Shown piece after piece: positions 8,788-27,148 of a DNA stretch of 64,000 bases; position 1 is the stretch's first letter; each line of letters starts with the position of its first letter. The DNA is from an uncultured Roseibium sp. (lineage in GTDB: Bacteria; Pseudomonadota; Alphaproteobacteria; Rhizobiales; Stappiaceae): NCBI RefSeq assembly GCF_947496995.1, contig NZ_CANMFD010000001.1, positions 864,692 to 928,691 of the forward strand, read 5' to 3'. Below the pieces are notes generated by a model, which saw nothing but the letters and a program-made list of their open reading frames with translations, ran no database searches and was not told the DNA's origin. The position numbers and the translations under genes are program-made.

Positions 8788-8904
8788 TGTTCAAATCTAC
8801 TTAAGATTGTGTTAAGGTATTTTATGAGGTGATGCGTGCAATAAGCGAATACCAGCGGTTCAGTTGATTTTTTGATTTTTCTAATTTTTTGGCTTGGGGG
8901 GGCT

Positions 8905-10122: not shown

Positions 10123-10139
10123 CGGCGGGAGGAAATGCG

Positions 10140-10733
10140 ATGAGCAAGACATGTATCCAGGCCGTCGGGATCTTCAACCGGGCGGACAATTCGGGTCAGT
10201 TTGTAGCGGTGCAACCTGCCAAGGAAAGCTACGTGCCGCAGCAACGTCCGGAAAGTGCCCTGAAAGTATCGGTCGAAACCGAAGACGGCCGGAGGCTGGC
10301 GGAGATCCCGGTGACACCGGATTTCGGCAGTTGTGACGACGTGGTGGATGAAGGCACCTTTCAGACCTTCTTTGAACTGCCCGAAGGCACCAAGGTGCTG
10401 CGCTTGATGCATGACGGTCAGGAACTTGCGGTCTTTTCCACATCGCCCCCGGGTGCCGCGGCCGAGTCGTTTGGCCTTGGGCTGCGCAGGGGACATTCTG
10501 TGCCTTTGACGCAGACCGGTTCGGCCGACCCGAACGCGACCTACACGCTGCAGGCGCGCGAAAAGGGAGGTTCGCTCTGGCAGACGCTGGACATCGGGCT
10601 TGACCGCCCGGACGCCGGACAAGTGGATCTCAACCAGTTTCCGCATGCCGATGCGATCGAGGTCAGGGTACTGAAGTCCACCGGCTTCGATACCGAGGAG
10701 GTCGACAGGACCGAAATCGATTTCAGCGAATGA
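10140..10733 (+). CDS. Unknown protein of the quinoprotein operon
   Basis: A 197-residue protein with a strong ribosome binding site (GGAGG, seven bases before the ATG). It seems mostly beta-strand: repeated alternating hydrophobic segments such as LKVSVETEDGRRLAEIPV and AIEVRVLKSTG. It has two cysteines and no signal peptide or membrane segment. I recognise no family. It lies between the protease and the LodA-type oxidase, so a structural or chaperone role for that oxidase is possible, but nothing in the sequence proves it. Confidence 0.8.
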   Translation: MSKTCIQAVGIFNRADNSGQFVAVQPAKESYVPQQRPESALKVSVETEDGRRLAEIPVTPDFGSCDDVVDEGTFQTFFELPEGTKVLRLMHDGQELAVFSTSPPGAAAESFGLGLRRGHSVPLTQTGSADPNATYTLQAREKGGSLWQTLDIGLDRPDAGQVDLNQFPHADAIEVRVLKSTGFDTEEVDRTEIDFSE

Positions 10734-10790
10734 CCCGGGCGTCGCCGCGCCCGGCGGCCTTTTGAACTGCCCCGGTATTGAGGAGGATAC

Positions 10791-12701
10791 ATGCGCGCCG
10801 AGGATATTCAGTCGCTTTCGATACATCCGTCCATTGGAATCGCCCGGATCGGCAACGCGCCTGATGCCTGGTTTCCCGCTGCGGAAGTGCGCGGTGGCGT
10901 GCCGGAAGACCCGGACGGTTTTCGCAACAGCGGCGGCATGATCAAGCGGCAGGTGCCGCGATTTCGGGTCTACGCAACGCTCAAATCCGGCGAAGTTCGT
11001 GAAGTCACGGCGGCTGACGGCACGCTGACATGGCGCGTCGAGGTCGCCAATCTCAAGGCCGGCTGGTACCAGTTTCTTTTCGCGATGGACCTGGATCCGT
11101 CCTATGTGGAAGAGCCGCAACAACGCAACGCAGCCCTGACCGGGGAAGCGCGCGAAGATCTTAGTATTCGGCCTGCCGCGCGCCAGATCTCGGGTCCGAA
11201 CGAGCAAGGGTCCCAGTATCACTTCGACGACGGAGCCTTTTTTGGCAGGACGGTTTACCTTGGCGAGCTGCGGACAGACGAGGCCGGGCGACTGCTGTTC
11301 CTTGGCGGCGCCGGTGTGTCCGAGCCGCGACTGCCCGGCGCACGGCCCACGACCTTTGCCAACAATGACGGCTGGCACGACGACACTTGTGACGGGCCGG
11401 TGCGCGCCAGTTTCGAAATCGACGGCCAGAGTTTTGAAGCGACGCCGGCGCATGTGGTGGTGGCGCCGCCGAATTACGGGCCGGGACTGTTTGGTGTTGT
11501 CACAATGGATGATGTGGTGCTCGATCTCTACGTCCGTCTGGGGTGGCTGGACAAACCGGCAAGCACCTCCTTTACCGAAGACGTCTGGCCCATCTTCGAC
11601 CGGATGAGCGCGCATCAGTGGGTCAACGACGGCATATTGCTGCTGGCCGGGCAGGGCACGCCGCTGGATGCGCGGGATCCCGGAGTTATCGACCGGCTGA
11701 TCGACACATCTTCACAGGCTGCAGCCTTTCGCGCGGCCGTGCTGGCGCTTTTCCGGCCGCCGCCGCCGCGGGATCAGGCGGCAGGATTGCCGCCCTTTTA
11801 CGGTGATACCTTTGGCGATGGCGTCGATGCGGCGCTCGAATATCTGCCGGTGACCCAAACGCAGTACGACCATCTCAATCGATGGGCGATGGGCAATTTC
11901 GCCTCGGATTGGACGGGTTTTCCGCAACTGCCGGTCTTCGACGCCCTGACACCGGAACAGCAGGTCGAGGAACTGGACCGAGCGGGTCTGCACGAGTGCC
12001 TTGGCGGTCCGTTTCACCCGGGCATCGAGATAACGTGGCCCTTCCGGCTGGCCACCATGTGGGAGGCACCCTATCGCCTGCGCACGCTGCCCGAAGGAGA
12101 ACCTGTCAGGCAAGACTACGGCCCGGTCCTGACCCGGCAGGAGGCGCTAGCCCCCAACGGACCGCATGGCGCTTCGGGGCCCGGGTCTCTGACACGTTGG
12201 CTTGGCGTGCCGTGGCAGACTGATGAGGCGTCCTGCAATTCGGCCGCCATCTACACGCCAAGCCTGTATCTTTCCGCGCCCAGTTTCTGGGGTGCACGGG
12301 TTCCGAACCAGGTCATGTCCGCCGAAGCCTTCGAGATTGCGACCTTGCCGGATCAGCCTGAACTGCAGCGGCAGCGTCACTTTTCAAATCGCCGCCTTTG
12401 GCTGCGCGACATCCAGGGGCGCGGCTACCTCGAACGCATCGACAACATGGTGTCGATGTGGTGGCGGCTGGGCATGGTCGAGGCCAAGTCGCCACCGCCA
12501 AGAAGCGGTCTGCCTGACCCCTGTTTCGTGGAAACCGGCCGCTGGCCGCGTTTCTCTCAGGGCGATTTCACACTGAAGCTGGCACGCGACTTGACGGCGC
12601 TTTACCAGGACGAACCCGCCGCGCCGACGGCCGGGCTCGTGCGTGCCGAGGAGGCCTCGCCCAAGCCCACCTTCAAACGCTTCGACCGCGGAGAGGTCTG
12701 A
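10791..12701 (+). CDS. LodA/GoxA-family CTQ-dependent amino-acid oxidase
   Basis: This 636-residue protein belongs to the LodA/GoxA family, whose characterised members oxidise lysine or glycine at an amine group, releasing H2O2, with a cysteine tryptophylquinone made from their own side chains. The N-terminal signature SLSIHPSIGIARIGNAP is clear. The C-terminal third holds GVPWQTDEASC and RRLWLRD. By comparison with LodA (quinone formed from Cys516 and Trp581), Cys482 and Trp537 are the likely pair. The ATG follows GAGGAGG. There is no signal peptide, as in other LodA proteins. The stop overlaps the LodB-type gene by one base, the usual lodA-lodB arrangement. The amine substrate cannot be told from sequence. 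Confidence 0.9.
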   Translation: MRAEDIQSLSIHPSIGIARIGNAPDAWFPAAEVRGGVPEDPDGFRNSGGMIKRQVPRFRVYATLKSGEVREVTAADGTLTWRVEVANLKAGWYQFLFAMDLDPSYVEEPQQRNAALTGEAREDLSIRPAARQISGPNEQGSQYHFDDGAFFGRTVYLGELRTDEAGRLLFLGGAGVSEPRLPGARPTTFANNDGWHDDTCDGPVRASFEIDGQSFEATPAHVVVAPPNYGPGLFGVVTMDDVVLDLYVRLGWLDKPASTSFTEDVWPIFDRMSAHQWVNDGILLLAGQGTPLDARDPGVIDRLIDTSSQAAAFRAAVLALFRPPPPRDQAAGLPPFYGDTFGDGVDAALEYLPVTQTQYDHLNRWAMGNFASDWTGFPQLPVFDALTPEQQVEELDRAGLHECLGGPFHPGIEITWPFRLATMWEAPYRLRTLPEGEPVRQDYGPVLTRQEALAPNGPHGASGPGSLTRWLGVPWQTDEASCNSAAIYTPSLYLSAPSFWGARVPNQVMSAEAFEIATLPDQPELQRQRHFSNRRLWLRDIQGRGYLERIDNMVSMWWRLGMVEAKSPPPRSGLPDPCFVETGRWPRFSQGDFTLKLARDLTALYQDEPAAPTAGLVRAEEASPKPTFKRFDRGEV

Positions 12702-13783
12702 TGACGCATCCGTGTTTCGATGCGGTTATCGCTGGAGGTGGACCAGCTGGTCTGGCCGCCGCGATTGCCTTGCTGGAGCGCAGGTTGAGCGTCTTCATCC
12801 TGAGGCCGCCGGCCGTGCACCCAACGCCGCGCGCCGAGATGCTGCCGCCGGCCGCAGAGCCGATTATCGCCCGGTTGGGCATTGCCGACGTCCTCGAGCA
12901 GGCAGTCGCGCTACACCCCGCGCTTGGCCTATGGCCGACGGCCCAACCGGAGGTTCTTGGCCATGCGTCCGCGCAGCAGCGCACCGCGATCAGCATTGAC
13001 CGGTACGCGCTGATCACGCTTATGGAGAGGCGTGTCAAAGAAAAGGGCGGGCATTTTCACCCGCACCGCTTGCGCGGCATTGCCGGCGCACCGGGAAACT
13101 GGCTCGTTGCGACTGGCGACGGGCAGGTAGTGCGCGCGCGCTTTGCGGTCGACGCGACGGGACGGCCCGCGCATCTGGCGCGGCGGCTAGGCGCACAGCT
13201 TTGTCTCGGCGCGACTCTTGTGGCGCGGACCTTCTTCCTGCCCGCAACCCCTTGGCCACAGCTTGTCATCGAAGCTACAGCCAACGGTTGGTGGTACGCC
13301 TTGCCGATGCAGCAGGGTGGCACGGCGGGGTTTGTCAGCGAAGCCGACACGCTGCCGGAAAAACCAGCCCTGCTGCCGATACCTGGAGGTTTCCCGCCTC
13401 GAGCTAAAACATGGGACGCACGGAACAGCCGTCTTTCACCCTGCGCCGGTCCCGGCTGGCTTGCCGCTGGGGATGCCGCGGCGGCCTTTGATCCCGTTGC
13501 GTCACAGGGCCTCTTCAATGCGCTTTCTGGAGGGTTCTTTGCCGGGAATGCGGCGGCGGACGCGCTTGCGGGTGAGCACCATGCGTTCATCGTCTATGCA
13601 GACCTCGTGGCGCGAACTGCAGTACGCACACATCGTGCCACGCCGCATCACTATGCGACAGCAAGGGGGCAATCCGGTTTCTGGCATCGGCGCAGAGCGC
13701 AGGCGTTTTCTGCGCAATCCGAGCGACCCACGCCCTCCCCCTTTTCCGAGCAAGGGTTAGTTTTCCAAGCGAACTTCAATTGA
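12701..13783 (+). CDS. LodB-type FAD-dependent maturation protein
   Basis: A 360-residue flavoprotein with an N-terminal dinucleotide-binding motif (AGGGPAGLAAAIALLE) and a second FAD motif GDAAAAFDPVASQGL near residue 250, as in flavin-dependent monooxygenases. LodB-type proteins are needed for quinone formation in the adjacent LodA, so it most probably hydroxylates or otherwise activates the precursor Trp of the upstream protein. It starts at the ATG of a TGATG junction with the oxidase stop, with GGAGAGG upstream, so translation is probably coupled. Confidence 0.85.
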   Translation: MTHPCFDAVIAGGGPAGLAAAIALLERRLSVFILRPPAVHPTPRAEMLPPAAEPIIARLGIADVLEQAVALHPALGLWPTAQPEVLGHASAQQRTAISIDRYALITLMERRVKEKGGHFHPHRLRGIAGAPGNWLVATGDGQVVRARFAVDATGRPAHLARRLGAQLCLGATLVARTFFLPATPWPQLVIEATANGWWYALPMQQGGTAGFVSEADTLPEKPALLPIPGGFPPRAKTWDARNSRLSPCAGPGWLAAGDAAAAFDPVASQGLFNALSGGFFAGNAAADALAGEHHAFIVYADLVARTAVRTHRATPHHYATARGQSGFWHRRRAQAFSAQSERPTPSPFSEQGLVFQANFN

Positions 13784-13798: not shown

Positions 13799-15127
13799 AT
13801 GGCCAGAATCAGACATGGCAGCGTGGCCGAAGCGATGTTCGGCGTCATGCAAGCACGAGACGCGGCCGGATTGACCCCCGGCGGCCCGCAGCCGGACGCG
13901 GTCTTTGACCGTATGCTGCCGCCCGAAAACGACCAGCCGGATGAAGACAAACTCAGGATCCTGGCCGACAGCATGAACGAAGGCACTAATGCGTCAGGGG
14001 GCGATGCCGAAATCCCTGCCGGCGTGACTTTTCTGGGACAGTTCATCGACCACGACCTGACGCTCGATTTGGTGTCGAAACTGGGGGACGAAGCCGAAGC
14101 CGGCCTGCCAAACTTCCGCACACCGCGTCTCGACCTCGACTCGGTTTATCGTGATAATCCGGATCATTTTCCCTACGCCTACGACCGCAATTTCCATTTT
14201 ATTGTGGGCACCGCAGACAACCCGGGCGATCTGCCTCGAAACTCGGCCGGCGTGGCCCTGATCGGCGACCCGCGCAACGACGAAAACATGTTCGTGTCGC
14301 AGCTGCACGGGCTGTTTCTGCGTTTCCACAACTTCCTGCTGGATCAGGAGACCAGCGGCGGTACAGCATCGGAAGAGCAGTTCATCCAGGTGCGCGCCGC
14401 CGTGCGCGCCCTGTACCAGAGCGTCATCGTGTCAGAGTACCTCCCGGCCATCGTCGCCGACTCGGTGTTGCAGCCGATGGTCGACGGCTTCTGGCTGGGT
14501 GCCCTTCCCGGGCCGGTTGACTGGGCGACAATGCCCAACATGCCGTTCGAGTTTGCAGCGGCTGCGTTTCGATTCGGGCATTCCCAAGTGCGCTCGGGCT
14601 ATCGCGTGAACGGCAGCAAGAGCGCCGGCCTGTTCGACATCGGCGGGTTCAATCCGGTCGACACCGACAGCAATGTAGCCTGGAACCTGTTCTTCGACTT
14701 CGGCGACGGCGCATTCCAGAAAGCGCGTGATATCGACAGCAACGTGGCCCAGGCGCTTTTCGAGATGCCCGACCGTGTCGCCGGCAAGGACGGACCGTCC
14801 CTGCCATTCCGCAACCTTGTGCGGGGGCAACACACCTTCAAGCTGCCTTACGGCGAAGATGTCGCGGCCATATGGAATATGCCGTCCAAGACCCATACCA
14901 AGGTCAAGGCGGCCGGCCTGACCAAGTCGCCGCTCTGGTTCTACGTGCTGGCCGAGGCCGAGGACTTCGGCGGCAAGCTGGGTCCGGTAGGCGGTACGAT
15001 TGTCGCCGGAACGATCCTGAACCTTCTTTTGCGCGACAGCGGCTCGATCGCCCACACCGGCGGCCCTGAAGTGCCTGGCCGGATGAACCAGGTGGCTCGG
15101 GCCTCAGTTGCTGAGGTCGCGACTTGA
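13799..15127 (+). CDS. Animal-type haem peroxidase
   Basis: A 442-residue protein of the peroxidase-cyclooxygenase (animal haem peroxidase) superfamily. Family motifs are visible: FLGQFIDHDLTLD with the distal His at residue 85, RNDENMFVSQLHGLFLRFHN, and FRFGHSQVR with the proximal His at residue 261. It would use H2O2 to oxidise a substrate. There is no signal peptide. It follows the LodB-type gene by 15 bases with an AAGGAG site, so it is made together with an H2O2-producing oxidase. It may consume that peroxide or use it productively, for example in a crosslinking or halogenation step. Which one is not visible. Confidence 0.9.
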   Translation: MARIRHGSVAEAMFGVMQARDAAGLTPGGPQPDAVFDRMLPPENDQPDEDKLRILADSMNEGTNASGGDAEIPAGVTFLGQFIDHDLTLDLVSKLGDEAEAGLPNFRTPRLDLDSVYRDNPDHFPYAYDRNFHFIVGTADNPGDLPRNSAGVALIGDPRNDENMFVSQLHGLFLRFHNFLLDQETSGGTASEEQFIQVRAAVRALYQSVIVSEYLPAIVADSVLQPMVDGFWLGALPGPVDWATMPNMPFEFAAAAFRFGHSQVRSGYRVNGSKSAGLFDIGGFNPVDTDSNVAWNLFFDFGDGAFQKARDIDSNVAQALFEMPDRVAGKDGPSLPFRNLVRGQHTFKLPYGEDVAAIWNMPSKTHTKVKAAGLTKSPLWFYVLAEAEDFGGKLGPVGGTIVAGTILNLLLRDSGSIAHTGGPEVPGRMNQVARASVAEVAT

Positions 15128-15194: not shown

Positions 15195-16835
15195 ATGACA
15201 GAAACATCTTTCGACAAGCGCAGCCTAGTCGAACAGATCGGGCATCCCCTGACCGCCGACGCTTCGGCTGGGTTGGCCCCGACCGGAGTGCCACCGGTGA
15301 TGCGTATGGTGGTCGGCCTCGACCCCGCTCCGGTTCTCCTGACACCGACCGACCTCGAAACGCTGGGCGATCCGTTCGCGCGCCTGATCCTACGCCGGGA
15401 CGAGCGCCCGATGACCGTGGATGCCCTGCTGGAGCGGTTTGACGTTCTGTCCTCCGAGGCGACGCTAGCTGACGCCGCCGTTCGCGACGAAAAGGTCTTT
15501 CTGCTTGGCGAGGGCGGGCAGATCCCGTTCACCCCTGCCACTGCGGCGTTGAACCGCGCGCTGCGTTTTGTCGTCGCGCGAACGGGTCCGAACGACCGGC
15601 TCATCCTGATGAGCGTCGATGACCGGCCCTCGACCGTCACCGGGCTATTGCAGGTGCTGTCGTGGGACCCTGGCAAGGGCGCCTACAATTTCTACCAGCG
15701 CCGCGACGGTGTCTGGTTCTATTCCGGGGACGGCACTCATGCGCTGGAGCCGCCGACCCGGGGGCGCGGGCCGTTCGACGGCCACGTCAACGGTTCTTTG
15801 GTCATGAAGGAACTGCGCGCACCCTGGCTGCACTGGAACAGCCAGTCGGTCCCGATCCCACCCGAGGCCTTCGCGCCGGGCCACCCGATCCTAGGTCACC
15901 GGCTGATGGCGCATCCGGACGGGGCGGAGGTTCTTGAGCTCGACATCATCCAGCCCGGTATCGACCGGTGGATTGAGGCACGGTTTGATCGTGCCATCCA
16001 AGGCGGCACCCTCAAGGCGGCCGACACCTTCCTGCGGCAAGTGGTGCAAACCACGACCGTGAACCTAGTGGCCTCGGACCGGGAATTCCGAGAGGTGGCT
16101 GCCGGGGTCCGCGTCAACGTTCCGCCCGAAATCCTGCTCAACATCGAGGCATGGACCCATCTGCTGGACCCGCTGACGATACGCGGGCGCGTCCAAGTCG
16201 ATGGCGGCCACCTGTTGCGGGCCATCGACGATCTGGGCATCGCGCTGGAAGACCCGGCTGCGGGCTTTCGCCAGCCCGGCGAGGCTTTCTTCGCGCTGGC
16301 CTGTCCGTCGCCCGCATTCGAGGACCTGAGCACCATCCTTGCGCTGATCGACCGGGGCGTCCTTAGCGCGGGACTGGTGCGCGCGATCCTTGCCGTGGAC
16401 TTCAGCAATCCGGTCCAGTCCTCGCGCCGCGCCGGATTTTTGCGGCACATGCCAAGGGCCGGGGCCCTTGGCACTGGGGCAGGGTCCTGCGAGGCCCAGA
16501 TCCTCGACGCGTTCGCCGCCGAGGCCGCCGCCCGCCCGTCGTCGGATGAGGCGCGGGTTCTGGATTGGCTTGCCACGGGTGACGACGCGGCTCAGCGCGC
16601 ACGGATCGGGGCAGAGATCGCCGCCTACTACGAAGCCGCCAAGCAACGCATGCAGACCGAACAGTGCGTACGCGACCTGATGCGGCTGATCGTTTCGCGC
16701 CGGCGCTATTTCCGGACGCTCGGCGTTTCCGAATTTGCGCTGACGCTGCCTGTCGACGCGCTGCCCCCGGACGCGGCGCCGGTTATGATGGCCCCGGACG
16801 CCACGATCTTTGAAGCACCTGATCTTGTTGGATAA
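15195..16835 (+). CDS. Unknown 546-residue protein of the quinoprotein operon
   Basis: No family is recognised. The protein is soluble, without signal peptide or membrane helix. The first 120 residues contain 'PVMRMVVGLDPAPVLLTPTDLE'-like mixed alpha/beta sequence. The middle holds an aromatic-rich part (KGAYNFYQRRDGVWFYSGDG). The C-terminal 120 residues are helical and Ala/Arg-rich, ending in a Pro-rich tail. Three cysteines are scattered (ALACP, GSCEA, EQCV). The ATG lacks a strong ribosome binding site but follows a GGTAGG stretch. It sits between the peroxidase and another unknown protein, within one co-directional run, so it probably serves the same system. Confidence 0.8.
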   Translation: MTETSFDKRSLVEQIGHPLTADASAGLAPTGVPPVMRMVVGLDPAPVLLTPTDLETLGDPFARLILRRDERPMTVDALLERFDVLSSEATLADAAVRDEKVFLLGEGGQIPFTPATAALNRALRFVVARTGPNDRLILMSVDDRPSTVTGLLQVLSWDPGKGAYNFYQRRDGVWFYSGDGTHALEPPTRGRGPFDGHVNGSLVMKELRAPWLHWNSQSVPIPPEAFAPGHPILGHRLMAHPDGAEVLELDIIQPGIDRWIEARFDRAIQGGTLKAADTFLRQVVQTTTVNLVASDREFREVAAGVRVNVPPEILLNIEAWTHLLDPLTIRGRVQVDGGHLLRAIDDLGIALEDPAAGFRQPGEAFFALACPSPAFEDLSTILALIDRGVLSAGLVRAILAVDFSNPVQSSRRAGFLRHMPRAGALGTGAGSCEAQILDAFAAEAAARPSSDEARVLDWLATGDDAAQRARIGAEIAAYYEAAKQRMQTEQCVRDLMRLIVSRRRYFRTLGVSEFALTLPVDALPPDAAPVMMAPDATIFEAPDLVG

Positions 16836-16854
16836 CTGATTGGAGGACATACCG

Positions 16855-17958
16855 ATGGCATTCACGTTTACCGCCACTGGCGACCTGACCGAAATGAACA
16901 CCGGCGCCGCTGCGGATTGGCATGCTGAGGTCAGCGGATACTTCAACGCATCGCGCAATCCGCCACCGTTTTCCTTTGCTGGGTCCCGCAACCAGTTCTT
17001 CAACCCGGCGGACGGAGTCGAGGCCGATGCCGTCGAAAAGGACATCGGCTGGACGGCGTTTCCCCGACCGCTGACCATTTCCTCGGCCACCGATGAGGAA
17101 CGCTGGTTCCTGGCCGAGGAAAGCCGCTTCGAACAGGTCGAGTACTGCGAATGGAGCACCACCCGCGATGCCAGCGGCAAGGTGATCAAGATCTCGTTCA
17201 CCTGCGAGGACCGCAATTACTTTCGCGCACTGTTCCGGCACCAGCCCGATGTCGTTCTGTCCCTGTACCGCGAGCACGTGTCGCCGGATGTCCAGATGTC
17301 CGACCTGGTGGACGGGTTGGGCAACTACGTGCCGGCGAACCGCTGGAACGCCAACAGTTCGGACGGCGCCATGCACATGATCGGGCAGCCCAACACGATC
17401 GGCGCAGCAGTCGAGCTTGTGGCCGGGGCCTGCGTGGTGCGCAGCAATCCAGACGGCACACTGAAGACCGGCGCGCGGGAGCTGATCCTGTGCGGACGCT
17501 ACGGCGATGCCGAAAGGCACAGCGATCCGACCATCGGCGCAGAGGTCAACGAACTGGCGCGCGCCGGACACGTCATCGCGATGGCAAACCCGCCGCAACT
17601 GGCCTTCGAGTCGATTTCCTTCTCCGGCTGGGACGTGCCGGACGGCGTCGCGCCCGAGCACTGCTGGACCCACACGCGCGGTGCAGACGGTCGGGCCGTG
17701 CGCGGCGTTCTGGAAGCCCCCGAAGGCGCCTCGTTCGTCGTGGGCGACATCCGGATTAACGGCAAGGTTATTCGTTTTGGCGGGCAGGTGGCCGACGGCA
17801 TCCGGATCAAGGTCACCGGACTCGCGCACAGGCTTGGACAGGCGACAATCGAGGCTGAAACCGGCTGCCTTGGCGATCCGGTATTTGGTGCCGCAGGTGG
17901 CGCCACCCCAACGCCGACGCCCGCAGCCGGTCAAGTGAACCGTTTTCGCAGGATTTGA
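16855..17958 (+). CDS. Unknown 367-residue protein of the quinoprotein operon
   Basis: The ATG at 16855 follows TGGAGG at eight bases, so the five upstream residues in frame are left out. The protein is soluble, Trp- and Cys-containing (YCEW, TCED, LCGR, EHCWTH, GCLG), and appears mixed alpha/beta. A segment SDPTIGAEVNELARAGHVI followed by ANPPQLAF looks like a conserved core, but I cannot name a family. The C-terminus is a low-complexity TPTPTPAAG linker ending in basic residues. It is cotranscribed with its neighbours (19 bases after the previous stop). Confidence 0.8.
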   Translation: MAFTFTATGDLTEMNTGAAADWHAEVSGYFNASRNPPPFSFAGSRNQFFNPADGVEADAVEKDIGWTAFPRPLTISSATDEERWFLAEESRFEQVEYCEWSTTRDASGKVIKISFTCEDRNYFRALFRHQPDVVLSLYREHVSPDVQMSDLVDGLGNYVPANRWNANSSDGAMHMIGQPNTIGAAVELVAGACVVRSNPDGTLKTGARELILCGRYGDAERHSDPTIGAEVNELARAGHVIAMANPPQLAFESISFSGWDVPDGVAPEHCWTHTRGADGRAVRGVLEAPEGASFVVGDIRINGKVIRFGGQVADGIRIKVTGLAHRLGQATIEAETGCLGDPVFGAAGGATPTPTPAAGQVNRFRRI

Positions 17959-18022: not shown

Positions 18023-19540
18023 ATGCTGACATCCATCGCCATCTATCCGCCACTGGCTTTTGCCCGCGTCGGGTCTTCCGATACCCCCTGCGCGGCCTAT
18101 TCCTGGCGTTCGGCCAAGTTGTCGCCAGACCAACCCGCATCGACGACCCTTCAGCCCGAAGATACGCTGTCACTAGCGGCGGACGGAATCGTGAAGTCAT
18201 ATGTGCCCAACGAAATTGTGCTAAAGGACCCCGAAGGTGCTTTCCGCCCGGTCTGCCCGTTCTTCGAGCTTTGGGGCACATGGGAGGAGAACGGAACCGA
18301 GGTCGAAGGCGCACTTACGCCGGATATCCTGTCGCGCTTCGGACTGTCGCTGAGCGACGTGACGTGGAGCGTGGATGTCGGCAACCTGAAGCCCTATCAC
18401 GTCACGCAGCGTGATGGTGACCGGATCAACGCAAGGCGCACGATTGCCGGGGAGGACACCGCACGGCACGAGATCTTCGGCAAATCGCCCGAGGTGGCCC
18501 AGCCGCTGGTCAGGCATCCCGACGGAATCCCGATGGGCGCGGTGCAACTGTCAAAGCCCGATGACGCCTTTCCTGAGCTGCGGTTGCGTTTCTATGCGCC
18601 AAAGGGGGTCATCTATGGACCGCCGGACATCGACACACGTATCGACGTCGCGCTCGCGTCCAATCCCGACCAGGAAGGTGCGATCCTGCCCTGGCGTGAT
18701 TTGGTCGTGCCACCTGACCGTCACAGGGTGAACCCCAACTCCTCGTGGGCAACCCATGATCTGGACGCTACCGATGTGCCGCCACTGGGACCCGGCGACG
18801 GGCGGTTGAATCCGGGCGGGCTAGTCGCTTCGATCCTGAGCCGGGTGATCGGTCTGGTGGACGATGTGGGCGACGGGCTGATCTCGTGCCAGATCGGTGA
18901 CCTGGCAGCCCATGCCCGCATCGCCGTCGGCCCGCCGGATTTCGCACCTATGAACCGGCCGGTCGTGTCGCTTCAGGACGGGTTGAGCGACCGCGAAATC
19001 CGTGCCTCGGCCCGCGACGGAACGATTTCCGACGACGAATTGGAAGCAATCGTTGCCGATATTTTCGAGCGCGCGCTCGAAACTTCGGACCTGATGAACA
19101 AGGACGCGCAGAACTACCGTGCGCGTCTTACCAATCTCAATGAATACACCGGTCCGACAGGCGGCAACCTGGATCTCCCCAACCCGTCTCCGGCCTTCGA
19201 AGCCAGCCCGCACCGGACGCTGTGGCCCACGATCGATGAACAACTTTCGGCCAGTCCGGCCTACCCGGTGACACCTCAAAACGTGGACGCCATGCCGGTG
19301 ACAATGGTGGGGCAACGCAAGCACCGCCGCTACAACGCCATTGAATACTTTCGCGACAGGCTGCGAGAAGAGCCAGACCTGATCGAAAAATGGATCCGTA
19401 TCCCGCGCCCGCCGGAGCGGTTCTACGACCGGCGGATGCCTGCCCTAATGCGCGGTTCGGACCGGAACGCAATGCATCTGACCCGGCGGCAGTACGAGTT
19501 GATCCAGCTTTGGGCGAAGCGGCAGGGAGACAGCGCATGA
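18023..19540 (+). CDS. LodA-like protein lacking the CTQ-bearing C-terminal part
   Basis: The N-terminus SIAIYPPLAFARVGSS matches the LodA family start seen at 10791, and the protein follows LodA order through a domain ending PALMRGSDRN...LTRRQYELIQLWAK. The complete LodA copy has the corresponding LPVTQTQYDHLNRWAMGN near residue 370 and then continues for about 265 residues. Here the protein stops after 505 residues, a few codons past this motif, and contains no PWQ-x-D-x3-C. It is therefore a LodA N-terminal module without the quinone site. The ATG at 18023 follows GGGGG; 16 upstream in-frame codons are not needed. The stop overlaps the radical SAM gene (ATGA). It is probably a partner of the protein at 20844 rather than a decayed gene, because the frame is intact and tightly coupled. 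Confidence 0.85.
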   Translation: MLTSIAIYPPLAFARVGSSDTPCAAYSWRSAKLSPDQPASTTLQPEDTLSLAADGIVKSYVPNEIVLKDPEGAFRPVCPFFELWGTWEENGTEVEGALTPDILSRFGLSLSDVTWSVDVGNLKPYHVTQRDGDRINARRTIAGEDTARHEIFGKSPEVAQPLVRHPDGIPMGAVQLSKPDDAFPELRLRFYAPKGVIYGPPDIDTRIDVALASNPDQEGAILPWRDLVVPPDRHRVNPNSSWATHDLDATDVPPLGPGDGRLNPGGLVASILSRVIGLVDDVGDGLISCQIGDLAAHARIAVGPPDFAPMNRPVVSLQDGLSDREIRASARDGTISDDELEAIVADIFERALETSDLMNKDAQNYRARLTNLNEYTGPTGGNLDLPNPSPAFEASPHRTLWPTIDEQLSASPAYPVTPQNVDAMPVTMVGQRKHRRYNAIEYFRDRLREEPDLIEKWIRIPRPPERFYDRRMPALMRGSDRNAMHLTRRQYELIQLWAKRQGDSA

Positions 19541-20847
19541 CCGACCTTCATCCCTTCCGCAGCCCGCATGGCGCGCATGTGCTGCTGGTCGATGGCAGCC
19601 GTATCTACGACGTCGACGAGGATAGCTATGCGGAGGCGGCTGTCGGTAAGGTTCCTGCCGGGCTGCGCGATGCTGTCAGGACTCAATATGTCGACGAGAC
19701 GGCCTACCGTCCCGGCGGGCTACGCGCGCTGTCACTGAACGTCGCGCAGGGCTGCAACATGAGCTGTAGCTATTGCTATGCGGACGAAGGTCGGTTTGGT
19801 GCGCATGCTCGCCTGATGTCGGTCGATATGGGGCGCATGGCGGCCGAGCGTTTTCTCAACCAGGTGCCTCCCGGCCAAGATGCGGTCCTCGGTTACATGG
19901 GCGGCGAGCCGTTGCTCAACGCACGGGTGCTGCACGAGGTCACCCGTTTTGCGGCGGACCTTGCGGCGCGGCGGAATATCTCGTTGCGCTTCTCGGTGAC
20001 CACGAACGGTACACTACTTCGGGACGAGGACATCACCCTGCTCGGGGACTTTCCCTTCAGTGTTGCGATCAGCCTTGACGGCGGACGCGCCACAAACGAC
20101 GCACAGCGCCGTCTGCGAAATGGTCAAAGTGCCTATGACCGGACCGTCGAGGGCATCCGCAAGCTGACCTCTGCCAAGCGGCGTCCGCGCCATGTCTCCC
20201 TTCGGGCGACCGTGACGCCGCGCTCGGGCGAGTTGCCTATGATGCTGGAGGACATGTTCGCGCTGGGCGTGGACGAGGCGGGCTTTGCCCCTGTACTCGC
20301 CTCGCCAGATCCGAAAGACATGTTCGACGCTGCGGATTTCGACCGTTTCCTGACCGGCATGATCGCCTGCGGAGAACGCGCGGTCGGCGCGCTTTCAGAC
20401 CGGCAGCGCTTCCCGTTTTCAAACTTCGAAACCGCGCTGGGGGAAATCCACCGCGGCAGCCACCGCCCCTATCCCTGCGGCGCTGCGGCCGGCTACGCGA
20501 GCGTTAGCGCAGAGGGCGGGCTGTTCGGCTGTCATCGCGCCATCGACGACCCTGCCTTCGCCATCGGTTCGATCGAGGACGGCGCCGACCGCGAGGCGCA
20601 GCGCGATTTCCTGGAACGTCGACACGTACTACAGCAAGAGCCGTGCCGGACCTGCTGGGCACGCTTTCTATGCGGCGGCGGCTGCCACCAGGAGGTGCTG
20701 GCGCGGGGCCGGGTCGGATGTGACTATATCCGCGGTTGGCTGGAATTCTGCCTCTCGGCCTATGCCGACCTGTCCAGCCGCATTCCCGATTATTTCGATG
20801 AGCCCGAGACCTTTTTCAAGGACCAGAGCGTGGAGCCTTTCCAGTGA
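19537..20847 (+). CDS. Radical SAM/SPASM maturase
   Basis: The 436-residue protein has the radical SAM cluster motif CNMSCSYC (Cys73, 77, 80). Its C-terminal SPASM-type region contains PCGAAAGYAS, GCHRAIDD and the cysteine group CRTCWARFLCGGGCHQE, which would bind two extra iron-sulfur clusters. Such enzymes install thioether or carbon crosslinks in peptides and proteins. The closest family picture I have is QhpD/PeaB, which crosslinks the small subunit of quinohemoprotein amine dehydrogenase. The ATG at 19537 overlaps the stop of the truncated LodA gene by four bases, and its own stop overlaps the next GTG by four bases. Target: most likely the neighbouring protein at 20844 (inference). Confidence 0.88.
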   Translation: MTDLHPFRSPHGAHVLLVDGSRIYDVDEDSYAEAAVGKVPAGLRDAVRTQYVDETAYRPGGLRALSLNVAQGCNMSCSYCYADEGRFGAHARLMSVDMGRMAAERFLNQVPPGQDAVLGYMGGEPLLNARVLHEVTRFAADLAARRNISLRFSVTTNGTLLRDEDITLLGDFPFSVAISLDGGRATNDAQRRLRNGQSAYDRTVEGIRKLTSAKRRPRHVSLRATVTPRSGELPMMLEDMFALGVDEAGFAPVLASPDPKDMFDAADFDRFLTGMIACGERAVGALSDRQRFPFSNFETALGEIHRGSHRPYPCGAAAGYASVSAEGGLFGCHRAIDDPAFAIGSIEDGADREAQRDFLERRHVLQQEPCRTCWARFLCGGGCHQEVLARGRVGCDYIRGWLEFCLSAYADLSSRIPDYFDEPETFFKDQSVEPFQ

Positions 20848-22880
20848 GCGAAAACCTGACAAACCGAAAGATCCTGCCCCGCAACCTGACCGCCCGAGCC
20901 GACAAATGGGTGCGGGGAAATCCGGTCACCGTCCGCCCCGAAAGCGGCGTGGACAATTGCTACCCCGGGCTCGAATTCGACCAGCGCAACCTAGACAAGC
21001 GGTTCTTTCCCGGGCTGGAGTTCGAATTTCACGGCATCTTTCCACCCCTGCAGATCTCGATTCCTCCGCTTCTGCGGAGCGTCAGCAATGAGAAGGCCGG
21101 GCGCGACCTGCCAATCGAACAGGCCGATGTCGGCCAGTCCTTTGACAAAACTATCTACCTGTGGGCGGTCTGGGGAACCTTCGGCACCATGACCGGTCCG
21201 CAGCGGCGGGTAGAGCGGTTTTCCGGTCTGGATGGAACCGGCGGCCTGTCCGCTTGGCGCGTGGTGCATGACCTGGAACCCGGCCCCATCGCCCTGCTGC
21301 TGGCCCGGCGCGCTGCGGAGGGTGGCATTGACCTCGATGCGGCATCCACACTGGAGGCTGAGACCGCCTTGCAGAGCGGGCAAGACCTGGTGCGGCGTGA
21401 GAACGACAGGCTCGTGTTTGCCGTCCTTTCCGGCGAGCGGGCCGAATACTTGGTGGACGGCGTCATCAACCCGGACCTCTATGAAGTGGGTGATCTGTCC
21501 CGCAGTCTCTGTGCGCCTTGGCAATACGACTTCACTGACTGCGGCTGTTTCTACTGGGCCTCGAACAAGCCCGACCTCGTCGCGCTCAACGCCGAGGGAC
21601 CGCAGCTTTACAACTTTCAGCGCGCTGTGCGCGGGCCGGGGCAGGAACGTCCCGTCGCGGAGGTGCTGGATGACCGGACCGGGCTGCTAACCTTTGCGAT
21701 ACGCGACTTTAATCCGGGCGGCTGGTCGACCCGCGAGCCGGAATTTCCCGGTCACGTGATGAACTACCAGGCCCTGCTCAACGATTGGGAAGTTCTCAAC
21801 CCTGTCTTCGACCACGCCGAAAGCCCCAGATTCACGCCGGAACCTGCAACGAAACTGCCGCCGGCGGATGTCCTTCCCAGAGCTGAAGTGTTGCGCCGTC
21901 TTCGCTACCTTGCGACGGTTGAGCACGGACTGATGGTTGAGTACCTCTATGCGCATTACTCGGTTGACGCCCCGAGGACGATCCCCGGCACGGATCTCGT
22001 TCCGGCGCGCAACTTCGACATTGCCCGGTCGGTCCTCAGCGTTGCTATAGATGAAATGCGCCACTTCCGCTGGGTCAACGAGATCCTCCGCGAACTTGGC
22101 CATTCTATGGAACTTGGCCGTGTCGGCATGTTCGAGGATCTTGACGGCGATGCACGCTTCATCTCGCATGATTTCGCCCTGAAGCCCCTGAGCGCGCCGC
22201 AACTCGACTGGTTCATCGACGTCGAACGCCCTTCAGACCAGGTCGATCCCGACAAGGCGGGTGACACCATCGACGGTCTTTATACGCGGCTTTTGCTATC
22301 GATTCGGCAAGGCACGGATTTCAGCGAGGACGAGCGGGCAAGGCTCTTGCACCTGATCAAGTTGATCATCGACGAAGGGTTTGACCATTTCACCCGGTTC
22401 TCAAACGTAAGGGTCGCCCTCGCCGGCATTCCGGCCGGGTCGTGGTTGAGGGCTGCCATGCCGGAAAATCCGCGGCCGCTTGCGGATGGGCACCCCGCCA
22501 AGGTGGCCGAGATCGTCGCTGACCGCGCCTATTCGACCGTGTTGTCCGCCCTTGGGATCGTGTTCTCCATGTCCAATTCCCATGCCGGCGATTTCCTGCA
22601 GGCGGCCCGCTATGCCATGTATGCCCTCGATGATGCCGCACATGAGGTCATCACGCTGGGTGGCGCGCCCCTGTTCACCTTGCCGGAGACCGGAGACTTG
22701 CTGGCCGGGCCTAGCTTCGCGACGGCAAGCGGGACACCCGAGGACAGGTTGCGGACCTCGCTGGTCGCGCCGATGGAAACGGTTCTTGACGACTTGCGCA
22801 GCAGCGGCAGCGGCGCGGTGGCGGATTCCATGCAGAAACACTATGCGCGGATGATCGAAGAAATGGCGCGGCTGATGTGA
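20844..22880 (+). CDS. Composite protein: LodA-like CTQ motif region plus ferritin-like domain
   Basis: A 678-residue protein with two parts. Residues about 210-310 contain GDLSRSLCAPWQYDFTDCGCFYW, which lines up with GSLTRWLGVPWQTDEASC of the complete LodA copy upstream: Trp226-Gln matches PWQ, and Cys233 matches the quinone-forming Cys. A further FPGHVMNYQALLNDW may match the LodA segment VPNQVMSAEAF. Residues about 350-530 form a ferritin-like (VioB-type) four-helix domain with likely metal ligands Glu360/Glu366, E404-x2-H407 and E511-x3-H515. The N-terminal 200 residues (with FPGLEFEFH) are unassigned. It starts with GTG in a GTGA overlap with the radical SAM gene and overlaps the next gene by one base. 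It could be a metal-assisted quinoprotein or a substrate of the maturase. The activity is unknown. Confidence 0.82.
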   Translation: MSENLTNRKILPRNLTARADKWVRGNPVTVRPESGVDNCYPGLEFDQRNLDKRFFPGLEFEFHGIFPPLQISIPPLLRSVSNEKAGRDLPIEQADVGQSFDKTIYLWAVWGTFGTMTGPQRRVERFSGLDGTGGLSAWRVVHDLEPGPIALLLARRAAEGGIDLDAASTLEAETALQSGQDLVRRENDRLVFAVLSGERAEYLVDGVINPDLYEVGDLSRSLCAPWQYDFTDCGCFYWASNKPDLVALNAEGPQLYNFQRAVRGPGQERPVAEVLDDRTGLLTFAIRDFNPGGWSTREPEFPGHVMNYQALLNDWEVLNPVFDHAESPRFTPEPATKLPPADVLPRAEVLRRLRYLATVEHGLMVEYLYAHYSVDAPRTIPGTDLVPARNFDIARSVLSVAIDEMRHFRWVNEILRELGHSMELGRVGMFEDLDGDARFISHDFALKPLSAPQLDWFIDVERPSDQVDPDKAGDTIDGLYTRLLLSIRQGTDFSEDERARLLHLIKLIIDEGFDHFTRFSNVRVALAGIPAGSWLRAAMPENPRPLADGHPAKVAEIVADRAYSTVLSALGIVFSMSNSHAGDFLQAARYAMYALDDAAHEVITLGGAPLFTLPETGDLLAGPSFATASGTPEDRLRTSLVAPMETVLDDLRSSGSGAVADSMQKHYARMIEEMARLM

Positions 22881-23797
22881 TGCCTGTACCGATGACCGTC
22901 GAGGGGGCCGGCCTTGGGGCCGTCGCGGCAGCGGCAAGCCTTTCGCGTGCGGGGCACCCGGTGGTGGCCCCGGACCTTTCAGAGGCGGTCGCGGGCGGCC
23001 CTACCCTCGTTCTGAACGAAAAGACGCTGTGGATGATCGGCAACCTCTTCGGGCCTGAACTCTTATCTGGCATCGTGGCCGATGGGATCGCGATCAGGCA
23101 CCGCAGACTGCGCTGGCACAGCGATCGGTTCGAGAACCTTCCCGAAAAGAGCCTGTCGGTCGACGCGGCCCGGCTGGCCAGCCGACTTGGCAGGACGATT
23201 CCCGCGGCTGGGGACGGTCCGTGTCTGACCGTTCGCGCGCGGGGACGGCGGGCCAACCCGGGCATCGCGGCCCGCCCGCTTGCGGCCTACGTCTGGGATC
23301 TACCCGTTTCGTCGGACGGCCACCTCGACTGGTGCGCGACGATGACCGTTGGTCAGGGCTGGGCCGCTCTGGCGCCTGCGCCGTTGGGTGGCATCAACCT
23401 TCAGGTCTACCTGACCTGCGGGGCAGAGCCGGAGGCGCGCACAAACGGTGCAGAAGTACTGGACTACCTTGGTCTCGATGCCGGGCTGATGCTTGGAAAT
23501 CCGCCCCGACGCCTCGATGCCTCCGCTCGCCTGGGGACACTGTGGCAGAAAGCAGGTTGTTCGGTTGGGGATGAAGCGCTGGCGTTGGACCCGTTGGTCG
23601 GGGACGGCGTCGGACACACGATCCGCGCCGCCCTTTGGGTCTCTTCGCTTTTGGTTGCCGGGGATCTGTCAGATCACATGCGGCGTGAAGTCTATCGCCG
23701 CCGCATGATGGACGTCTTTCGCCAACACCAGGAGATCTGCGCGCGATATTATAGGCATTTGGATCAGAGCATCGCTGTGTCGACTGAAACGGGCTGA
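22880..23797 (+). CDS. Flavoprotein-like protein, last gene of the quinoprotein operon
   Basis: A 305-residue protein shaped like a reduced LodB. The start EGAGLGAVAAAASLSRAG is a Rossmann-type glycine motif in slightly altered form, and VGDEALALDPLVGDGVGHTI near residue 240 resembles the second FAD motif of flavin monooxygenases. It probably acts on the neighbouring composite protein as LodB acts on LodA. It begins at the ATG of a TGATG junction; a GTG one codon earlier is also possible. FAD binding is likely but not certain because the first motif lacks the usual third glycine spacing. Confidence 0.75.
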   Translation: MPVPMTVEGAGLGAVAAAASLSRAGHPVVAPDLSEAVAGGPTLVLNEKTLWMIGNLFGPELLSGIVADGIAIRHRRLRWHSDRFENLPEKSLSVDAARLASRLGRTIPAAGDGPCLTVRARGRRANPGIAARPLAAYVWDLPVSSDGHLDWCATMTVGQGWAALAPAPLGGINLQVYLTCGAEPEARTNGAEVLDYLGLDAGLMLGNPPRRLDASARLGTLWQKAGCSVGDEALALDPLVGDGVGHTIRAALWVSSLLVAGDLSDHMRREVYRRRMMDVFRQHQEICARYYRHLDQSIAVSTETG

Positions 23798-24580: not shown

Positions 24581-24590
24581 TCTCACACCC

Positions 24591-24826
24591 TCACCCCACC
24601 GCAGAAATACTATGCAGATGCACATCGTGTCCCGAATGTTTCTTCAGGATGTCCGTGGCGCGTTGTTCGTGTGCCGGGTTCCAGGTGCGCACCCACAGCA
24701 AAAGGCCGCCGTATTCGAGCTGTTCCTGCAGATGCTGCGCGGAGTGGTTGCCGACGAGTTTGGCCAGGATGCCGCCGATGACACCGCCCGCGCCGCCGGC
24801 AAGGGCCGCGCCGCTGATGATCTTGG
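24591..24826 (-). pseudogene. Truncated duplicate of the stress-type membrane protein gene at 26582
   Basis: From 24581 to about 24826 the DNA matches 26572-26813 with only a few single-base differences, including the stop codon and roughly the last 75 codons (DILKKHSGHDVH, GGVIGGILAKLVGNH). The match ends inside the Gly/Ala-rich membrane segment, and no start or N-terminal half exists upstream on this strand. It is a 3' fragment left by a segmental duplication. Confidence 0.85.
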
Positions 24827-24928
24827 CCTGTAGCTTCCGCCCGGGTGCGGCTCAATCCGCTGTCTGCGGTCAGTTCCGGGCCGCACCCTCCGGTCGCCTG
24901 CTTCGAGCCAACGGGAAATGGCGGCACT

Positions 24929-26571: not shown

Positions 26572-26813
26572 TCTCACACCCTCACCCCACCGCAGAAATA
26601 CTATGCAGATGCACGTCGTGTCCCGAATGTTTCTTCAGGATGTCCGCGGCGCGTTGTTCGTGTGCCGGGTTCCAGGTGCGCACCCACAGCAAAAGGCCGC
26701 CGTGTTCGAGCTGTTCCTGCAGATGCTGGGCGGAGTGGTTGCCGACGAGTTTGGCCAGGATACCGCCGATGACACCGCCCGCGCCGCCGGCAAGGGCTGC
26801 GCCGATGATGGTG
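26572..26813. repeat. Source copy of the 0.24-kb duplication
   Basis: Direct repeat partner of 24581-24826, about 98% identical by eye and in the same orientation. It covers the 3' third of the gene at 26582 plus ten bases beyond its stop. Confidence 0.85.
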
Positions 26814-27148
26814 GCGGCCATGGTGCCGCCGGAGGCGAGGATCACTCCGGCTGCTGCGCTGGCGGCGACATAAAGCGGCACGCCGATAAGCGCGCCTTCC
26901 GCGTCACCGGTCGTTTCCGTGGAGACATAGGAGCAGCGGGCGGCCTTGGGGTCGTCCTCGAGGTCGGTAACTTTCCTGTAGGCGTGGCCGAGCTTTTCCT
27001 CCACCGCATGTTCGCCCGCCAGCAGGCTGAGTTCGGCGCGGTTGAAGCCGGAGACCAGCAGCTCGTCGATGGCTGCCTGCAAGGCTTCGGCGGTGTCGAA
27101 ATAGCCGACCGCTTCGCGGATGTTGTAGGTCGATTGCGTTGAGGTCAT
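26582..27148 (-). CDS. Glycine-zipper-containing stress-type protein
   Basis: A 188-residue protein. The N-terminal half (AVGYFDTAEALQAAIDELLVSGFNRAELSLL) has the alpha/beta pattern found in DUF1269/YflT-type general stress proteins. The middle is a Gly/Ala-rich double membrane segment (GGAGGVIGGILAKL). The C-terminal part (GGLLLWVRTW ... AADILKKHSGHDVHLH) resembles the second domain of these proteins. Function unknown. It starts at ATG 27148 with a weak GGAA site. A 3' fragment of this gene is duplicated at 24.6 kb. Confidence 0.8.
   Translation of the reverse strand: MTSTQSTYNIREAVGYFDTAEALQAAIDELLVSGFNRAELSLLAGEHAVEEKLGHAYRKVTDLEDDPKAARCSYVSTETTGDAEGALIGVPLYVAASAAAGVILASGGTMAATIIGAALAGGAGGVIGGILAKLVGNHSAQHLQEQLEHGGLLLWVRTWNPAHEQRAADILKKHSGHDVHLHSISAVG

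Follow-up and report, generated by a model that had tools for sequence, protein, structure and literature searches.

The stretch of DNA considered here, referred to below as the window, comprises 64,000 nucleotides from an uncultured Roseibium sp. (assembly GCF_947496995.1, contig NZ_CANMFD010000001.1, positions 864,692 to 928,691 of the forward strand) and carries, at positions 18023-23797 of its plus strand, a set of four overlapping genes that share 4 bases at each junction. Two of these genes encode, as separate chains, the N-terminal part and the cofactor domain of a protein related to the quinoproteins LodA and GoxA, and the other two encode putative maturation enzymes, one of which is a radical S-adenosylmethionine (SAM) enzyme:

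18023-19540, plus strand: N chain, LodA-type N-terminal part, 505 amino acids, stopping before the HPGxE/PGxE segment
19537-20847, plus strand: QhpD-like radical SAM/SPASM maturase, 436 amino acids; 4-base overlap with the N-chain gene
20844-22880, plus strand: C chain, LodA-type cofactor domain plus ferritin-like domain, 678 amino acids, GTG start; 4-base overlap with the maturase gene
22877-23797, plus strand: LodB/GoxB/QhpG-type flavoprotein, 306 amino acids, proposed Trp hydroxylase; 4-base overlap with the C-chain gene

A preceding sequence-only reading of this DNA had claimed that a LodA-type protein is split here over two genes with a radical SAM gene between them, and that the three genes overlap by four bases. 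The coordinates (overlaps at 19537/19540 and 20844/20847) and the profile comparisons described below bear this out; the three genes are as that reading listed them, and the fourth, the flavoprotein gene, has to be added. The N chain terminates shortly past HLTRRQYELIQLWA, and residues 216-233 of the C chain, which is present as a single copy in the genome of the window, read GDLSRSLCAPWQYDFTDC.

Relatives of the split set were collected through a pattern scan of genome contigs (185 relatives reported, 79 loci kept) and through a tblastn search of plasmids with the C chain (19 records, 14 of them examined). The 86 loci discussed below are the 79 contig loci and the first seven plasmid loci, the window excluded. 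Residue counts refer to 86 C-domain rows, i.e., the window and 85 loci, as the locus L028, whose cofactor gene is broken over frames, was dropped.

The relationship of the two chains to LodA and GoxA lies below the reach of the standard domain models. Instead of LodA_N and LodA_C domains above the Pfam cut-off within a single chain, there are two chains with sub-threshold matches, LodA_N in the N chain at E=0.18 and LodA_C in the C chain at residues 212-244 with E=0.017, and sequence searches of the PDB with P0001 and with the C chain (P0003) yielded nothing significant. Comparison of profiles by hhalign, for which all E-values given here are those of a single pairwise comparison and not of a database search, related the LodA N-terminal part (13 rows) to the N family (80 rows) at E=4e-20 over 376 columns, with none of 60 column shuffles scoring as high, and the LodA C-terminal part (12 rows) to the C family (86 rows) at E=5.8e-8, a value matched by none of 100 shuffles. 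Furthermore, a natural single-chain form exists in an Aquimarina sp. (L084), where the N and C parts stand in one frame and are followed by the radical SAM and flavoprotein genes. The AlphaFold model of this fused protein (mean predicted local distance difference test score, pLDDT, 76; predicted template modelling score 0.59) gave 31 matches in the PDB at E<=0.001, all of them GoxA or LodA chains (best E-value 6.5e-11). Together, these data support the view that the N and C chains jointly cover one LodA-type protein, and to this extent the earlier claim that the two proteins form one enzyme stands; the separate chains would pair with each other.

Among the 13 rows of the LodA family, 12 hold the cofactor part, and common to them are the motif PW-x2-D-x3-C, a Trp and a Pro. 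In the complete LodA protein encoded upstream in the window these residues are P474, W475, D478, C482, W500 and P505, and their counterparts in the C family are P225, W226, D229, C233, W238 and P243, so that the Cys and Trp of the cysteine tryptophylquinone (CTQ) cofactor and the conserved Asp are all present in the C chain (C233, W238, D229). Since C233 and W238 align with C482 and W500, the latter being the sole conserved Trp after the CTQ Cys in the aligned LodA rows, they should form CTQ, and judged from this alignment C233-W238 is the most likely CTQ pair. The placement of the cofactor residues in the ferritin-fused chain by the sequence-only reading agrees with the LodA alignment; its choice of Trp226 as the quinone Trp was probably wrong and is rejected here, as W226 belongs to PWQxD and aligns with W475 of LodA. 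Around the candidate CTQ pair, the C chain contains further conserved Cys and acidic residues:

20958-20981, plus strand: C39-Y-P-G-L-E44-F-D46, proposed first thioether staple, from C39 to E44 or D46; its PGxE matches HPGIE of LodA and PGWEVD of QhpC (C39 in 83/86 rows, E44 and D46 each in 86/86)
21510-21530, plus strand: C223...D229, proposed second staple, whose acidic partner would be the conserved Asp of the active site (D678 in GoxA, D33 in QhpC) (each 86/86)
21540-21557, plus strand: C233 and W238, proposed CTQ precursor pair (86/86 and 85/86; the row without W238, L078, is cut by a contig end)
21546-21575, plus strand: C235...D244, proposed third staple, to be compared with C41-D49 of QhpC (86/86 and 85/86; again L078 is the cut row)

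W315 is found in 84/86 rows. Where C39 is replaced, the residue is Ser (L024, L072, L131) or Ala (L082), and in L024 and L072 the following residue is His, as in the HPG of GoxA, which may mark a loss of the first staple. The plasmid loci found through tblastn, and thus outside the pattern scan (L002-L008, L129-L133), carry the C223-D244 motif in 12/12 cases and C39 in 11/12. The same positions divide the family linked to a radical SAM enzyme from its LodA relatives: in the 12 scorable LodA rows the Asp, the CTQ Cys and the CTQ Trp are always present, the positions of C39, C223 and C235 never hold Cys, the D46 position is never Asp, and the D244 position is Asp in a single row. This pattern of Cys and acidic residues points to thioether staples of the QhpC kind, QhpC being the stapled gamma subunit of quinohemoprotein amine dehydrogenase (QHNDH).

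The best NCBIfam match of the radical SAM enzyme is TIGR03906 (QhpD; E=2.4e-74) at 250.7 bits, below the cut-off of 453 bits, compared with 721-779 bits for seven QhpD proteins from qhp-bearing genomes; the second family, PapB (NF047865), is matched at 1.3e-63 and likewise under its cut-off. TIGR03906 was reached at 1e-20 or better by all 26 maturases scanned (the window protein and 25 relatives, out of 76 located; best 5.6e-109). As in QhpD, a CxxxCxxC motif (C73, C77, C80) is joined by a seven-Cys SPASM region (C314, C332, C370, C373, C379, C383, C395), and all of these residues are invariant in the 26 rows. In a tree of 41 rows the seven QhpD proteins form one supported clade among the split-set maturases, and both groups stand apart from seven of eight other radical SAM enzymes; the joining branch is weak (85/53), and the outgroup branches are very long. 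One outgroup row with a long branch (L118) is placed between QhpD and split-set maturases, and the QhpD clade may lie beside or within the latter.

It is unlikely, in our estimate, that the locus encodes a LodA-like two-chain CTQ enzyme in which the radical SAM protein performs some other chemistry, e.g., formation of a Cys233-Trp238 bond, a Cys-Tyr237 bond or another one, and in which the extra Cys residues bind metal. The maturase does match models of sactipeptide and cyclophane maturases, more weakly, and the CxC beside the CTQ Cys could serve as a metal site. The genome of the window moreover contains three LodA_C proteins and yet no second strong QhpD-like radical SAM enzyme, which suggests that LodA can do without such an enzyme. 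Other chemistry is disfavoured by the C-x5-D-x3-C spacing, which is identical to that of QhpC, and by the activity of the two families matched best, as QhpD and PapB each form Cys-Asp/Glu thioethers (PMC11002830). We prefer staple formation by this enzyme as the working interpretation.

The partner flavoprotein of the window has no Pfam match and is recognized by the QhpG (9.4e-10) and LodB (7.3e-6) models. When the window protein and 23 of 68 located relatives were scanned by profile, QhpG matched 24/24 (best 1e-92), LodB 21/24 and GoxB 20/24, and by these matches the protein is of the LodB/GoxB/QhpG class. A LodB/GoxB-type flavoprotein gene lies nearby in the window and in 75/86 loci.

The fusion of the 678-residue protein to a ferritin-like domain, already claimed from the sequence alone, is confirmed by the following match:

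21876-22877, plus strand: ferritin-like domain, C chain residues ~345-678 (PF12902, E=4.3e-12, 46.8 bits, above the cut-off of 22.3)

Its probable di-iron ligands are E360, E404xxH407, E461 and H515; among 42 rows E404, H407 and H515 are invariant, and E360 and E461 are kept in at least 90%. The ferritin part of the C-chain model, which is predicted with confidence, matched 3hl1 (ferritin-like protein CC_0557) in Foldseek at E=3.9e-5. PF12902 genes are reported near fungal lodA genes in PMC4417212, so that the association of a ferritin-like domain with LodA has precedent. The conserved ligands of this domain, together with a weak VioB match of the C chain (TIGR04492, 21.6 bits, E=4.1e-5, far from the 1250-bit cut-off), lend something to the notion that the LodA-like parts are a dead scaffold and that the ferritin-like domain is the active centre, as might hold for VioB-like proteins. 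We regard this as improbable, given that the CTQ Cys, the CTQ Trp and the catalytic Asp are retained in 85-86 of 86 rows (the Cys and Trp lying within a search pattern, the Asp outside), that the maturases are kept, and that several loci encode the ferritin-like domain as a gene of its own. A catalytic CTQ site in the LodA-type part is the reading pursued here.

Co-occurrence of the three genes in other genomes, which the sequence-only reading had named as a check, is found in many. Among the 86 loci with a cofactor chain, an N chain is present in 84, a ferritin-like domain in 82, the radical SAM gene in 79 and the flavoprotein gene in 75, whereby a gene was counted anywhere in the locus and on either strand, and the N-chain and flavoprotein models also match true LodA and LodB proteins (e.g., in L027). 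Six of the seven loci without the radical SAM gene end at or near a contig end, and in L024 this gene lies on the opposite strand, ~4.5 kb off. L081 holds a gene for a ferritin-like domain fused to the N part and a C gene with no radical SAM gene nearby, and its assembly also has a full set on a different contig (L079); the copy in L081 may be matured in trans. The 86 loci span about nine phyla (Cyanobacteriota, Actinomycetota, Planctomycetota, Pseudomonadota, Acidobacteriota, Nitrospirota, Binataceae, Myxococcota, Bacteroidota), an assignment taken from record titles. Within the class of the window the system is rare, as a cofactor-domain alignment search of 385 genomes found the window's own genome only. 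Of the 14 plasmid records examined, 13 have N, C and radical SAM matches (in L135 the N part is spread over two frames), and the remaining one (H13, L134) encodes a ferritin-like protein but lacks the split set.

Gene order was tallied for same-strand genes within 6.5 kb in the 86 loci and the window (FER, ferritin-like domain; a plus sign marks a fusion). The order N-rSAM-C+FER-flavoprotein occurs 31 times, including the window (rSAM, radical SAM), N-C+FER-rSAM-flavoprotein 21 times, FER-N-C-rSAM-flavoprotein eight times, N-rSAM-C+FER seven times and FER+N-C-rSAM-flavoprotein three times; two further orders are found twice each, and 13 are single cases, among them FER-(N+C)-rSAM-flavoprotein in L084. 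These changing fusions (C+FER, FER+N, N+C) suggest that the N part, the C part and the ferritin-like domain act together. The N chain of L002 (6040-7671) has a ferritin-like domain of its own (PF12902, 1.5e-39), and the C chain of this locus has a second one. Both parts are colinear with the complete LodA upstream in the window, but disruption of an ordinary LodA gene by a frameshift or insertion, the event that might have undone the sequence-only reading, has next to no probability and is rejected here, since dozens of genomes show this split, with separate complete genes.

The likely product of the cluster, in our view, is an oxidase of the LodA fold that consists of two chains, bears CTQ and is made through radical SAM staples, the flavoprotein and docking of the chains. 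In this proposal, the QhpD-like enzyme would bond the sulfur atoms of Cys residues to side-chain carbons of acidic residues within the C-chain cofactor domain, forming C223-D229 and C235-D244 bonds and in addition C39-E44 or C39-D46; the flavoprotein would hydroxylate Trp238, and this residue would be linked to Cys233 to give CTQ. The stapled C chain would then dock on the N chain and thereby complete an active site of the LodA type, in which Asp229 would serve as the base. The assembled enzyme would use O2 to oxidise a primary amine or an amino acid, with H2O2 as a product, and the ferritin-like di-iron domain may handle O2, peroxide or iron where these are used or made.

A number of observations weigh against this proposal. 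The scan patterns themselves favour C39, E44, C233, C235 and W238 (C223, D229, D244, D46 and W315 lie outside them), the proposed first staple is not universal, because C39 is Ser or Ala in 3/86 rows and Ser in L131, and in 3/12 LodA rows the residue that follows the C39 position is Cys. To this must be added the shortfall of the maturase against the QhpD cut-off, the lack of a radical SAM gene within 2.9 kb beyond the C gene in L081, and the lack of a flavoprotein match within 16.7 kb in L053. The flavoprotein of the window is short and divergent, and single-sequence scores, obtained for 20 of the 24 flavoproteins with two LodB references and one QhpG reference, favoured LodB in 16 cases and QhpG in 4. 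No QhpE-like leader protease was noticed, no search having been aimed at one. The TM-scores of the L084 model against GoxA and LodA are low (0.23-0.29). In the C chain modelled alone, pLDDT falls below 50 at residues 1-43 and 221-313, and the matching cofactor region of the fused L084 model is mostly below 50 despite the presence of the N part, so that the models do not show the N part ordering this region; they neither confirm nor exclude the geometry of the cofactor site, nor the structural match to the LodA CTQ region that the sequence-only reading had set as a criterion.

The resemblance to QhpC raises the question of a common origin. QhpC (PDB 1jju; numbers derived from an alignment) contains C7, PGWE16VD, C27, D33, C37, C41, W43 and D49, and the C chain contains C39, PGLE44FD46, C223, D229, C233, C235, W238 and D244; hence, as residues only, three Cys-acid pairs and the CTQ Cys and Trp follow each other in the same order. 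C-x5-D-x3-C and W-x5-D have the same spacing in both proteins, whereas ~180 residues separate PGxE from the remaining motif in the C chain and 11 do so in QhpC. In QhpC, C7-E16 and C27-D33 are Cys-acid pairs. The expression LC.P...D...C.{1,6}W.{5}D is matched by both the C chain and QhpC; when the letters of one QhpC were shuffled 1,000,000 times, it was matched once. The QhpC model PF08992 is not among the Pfam matches of the C chain up to E=1.

A QhpC profile was built from 13 loci (11 distinct rows; a first set had 6 rows). It includes a divergent QhpC of Novosphingobium sp. RL4 (L124:6001-6339; 45% identity), in which the Cys/Asp pairs as well as the Cys and Trp of CTQ are retained and whose record also carries a split set (L135); a search of 274 genomes of another class returned a single, already known QhpC. 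The 11-row profile matched LodA-C at E=5.9e-5 and the pool of LodA-C and split-C at E=1e-6 (0/100 shuffles as high in each case), the split-C core at E=0.0022 (1/100) and the full split-C domain at E=0.024 (4/100). Profiles of the N chain, LodA-N, the radical SAM enzyme, the flavoprotein and the ferritin-like domain, used as negative controls, gave E-values of 0.18-0.52, and reversed-QhpC controls gave 0.42 and 0.79. With Cys masked, QhpC still matched LodA-C (1.5e-5) and the pool (9.7e-6), with 0/100 shuffles as high for each, which makes the LodA-QhpC relation independent of the cysteines. Because the direct match between QhpC and the split family is weak, the link runs via LodA-C and the pooled profile.

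Several results limit the case for a special closeness of QhpC and the split family. The 6-row profile reached E=0.087 with the full split-C domain (42/200 shuffles as high) and E=0.11 with its core (73/200), and after Cys masking the 11-row match to the core was lost (40/100 shuffles as high), so that this closeness depends on the cysteines. The expression given above was picked after the sequences had been seen, and its gap was widened from 1-4, which missed QhpC, to 1-6. Taken together, the profile comparisons argue for homology of QhpC with the LodA cofactor domain, and thus for a common ancestry of LodA and QhpC. We give even chances to the further idea that the split family is a surviving bridge. 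An ancestral CTQ domain would have been stapled by a QhpD-like radical SAM enzyme and finished by a QhpG/LodB-like flavoprotein; LodA/GoxA would then have lost the staples and the radical SAM enzyme, QhpC would have been reduced to the bare stapled core as part of a haem dehydrogenase, and both the LodA scaffold and the staples would have been kept in the split family, which would have gained the di-iron domain.

The surroundings of the split set contain further genes of interest:

10791-12701, plus strand: complete LodA/GoxA-type copy (GoxA model E=1.9e-113, 380 bits, the cut-off of 750 not being reached)
12701-13783, plus strand: LodB/GoxB-type partner of the complete LodA
13799-15127: animal-haem-peroxidase-type gene (PF03098, 2.9e-17)

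The region 8872-13783 encodes a putative metzincin-type peptidase, a 197-residue protein and the complete LodA with its LodB-type partner; the peptidase contains HELGHTLGCRH, presumably a metzincin-type motif. L027 and L040 likewise have homologs of the peptidase, the 197-residue protein and the complete LodA close to their split sets, and L006 has a peptidase homolog in such a position. Relatives of the haem peroxidase are found near the split set in 4/86 loci (L007, L051, L057, L063), and the presence of such genes there and in the window would fit an H2O2-producing oxidase. Two proteins just upstream of the split set (15195-16835 and 16840-17958) lack a Pfam match; the latter has homologs in L002, L006 and L007, the former in L006. 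Downstream, a direct repeat of 248 bases with 96% identity is present (24581-24828 and 26572-26819, spaced 1991 bases), the second copy overlapping the 3' end of an open reading frame at 26582-27148 (minus strand). The two further LodA_C-type proteins of the genome adjoin each other on contig 4 (~423054-425451).

A literature search, covering titles and abstracts and leaving most subscription papers and all preprints outside its scope, found no split LodA, no LodA with a radical SAM maturase and no LodA-QhpC homology. If our interpretation is right, the split set represents a new way to build a protein-derived quinone enzyme: a large oxidase scaffold receives radical SAM staples, its cofactor part is produced as a chain of its own, apart from the scaffold chain, and a di-iron domain is attached. 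It would offer new protein substrates for enzymes that form Cys-Asp thioethers, and a probable function for proteins annotated as hypothetical or ferritin-like in plasmid records. A 2021 paper concluded that tryptophylquinone formation is convergent (PMC7876137); the split family would make the choice between convergent and common origin of CTQ testable, and two quinone enzyme families thought separate in origin may share one.

Among known systems, the VioB and PF12902 proteins (3hl1) share the ferritin-like domain with the C chain, but the VioB match is weak and confined to the ferritin-like stretch. The PapB/freyrasin ranthipeptide maturases (NF047865), the second-best family of the radical SAM enzyme, share its presumed Cys-Asp/Glu thioether chemistry; their substrate is a short Cys-rich peptide, whereas that of the split set would be a large protein. 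LodA and GoxA (PF17990, PF18417) resemble the split family in the profile relationship and the fused model, in PW-x2-D-x3-C, the cofactor-loop Trp and the Pro, and in the LodB-type flavoprotein partner. The split family differs from them through its distribution over two chains (except in L084), three extra conserved Cys residues, the radical SAM maturase, the ferritin-like domain, and a stretch from PGxE to PWQxD that is ~120 residues longer than that of the window LodA. LodB and GoxB add one oxygen and QhpG two, and either may apply to the split-set flavoprotein.

The QhpC/QhpD/QhpG system (PF08992, TIGR03906, NF049967) shares with the split set the Cys/Asp pattern, the order of the CTQ Cys and Trp, W-x5-D, a closing W..L..V and a flavin monooxygenase; in an annotated qhp operon (L128), as in the window, the radical SAM gene directly precedes the substrate gene with a 4-base overlap. 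A Pfam scan of ten window proteins gave no match to the dihaem alpha subunit or the beta subunit of QHNDH. According to PMC7876137, QhpC has ~80 residues, a 28-residue leader and a dihaem alpha subunit as partner, whereas the split-set domain sits on a LodA scaffold; there, QhpD staples first and QhpG acts thereafter, and an Asp is conserved in all tryptophylquinone enzymes, GoxA D678 mutants nevertheless forming CTQ (PMC7876137).

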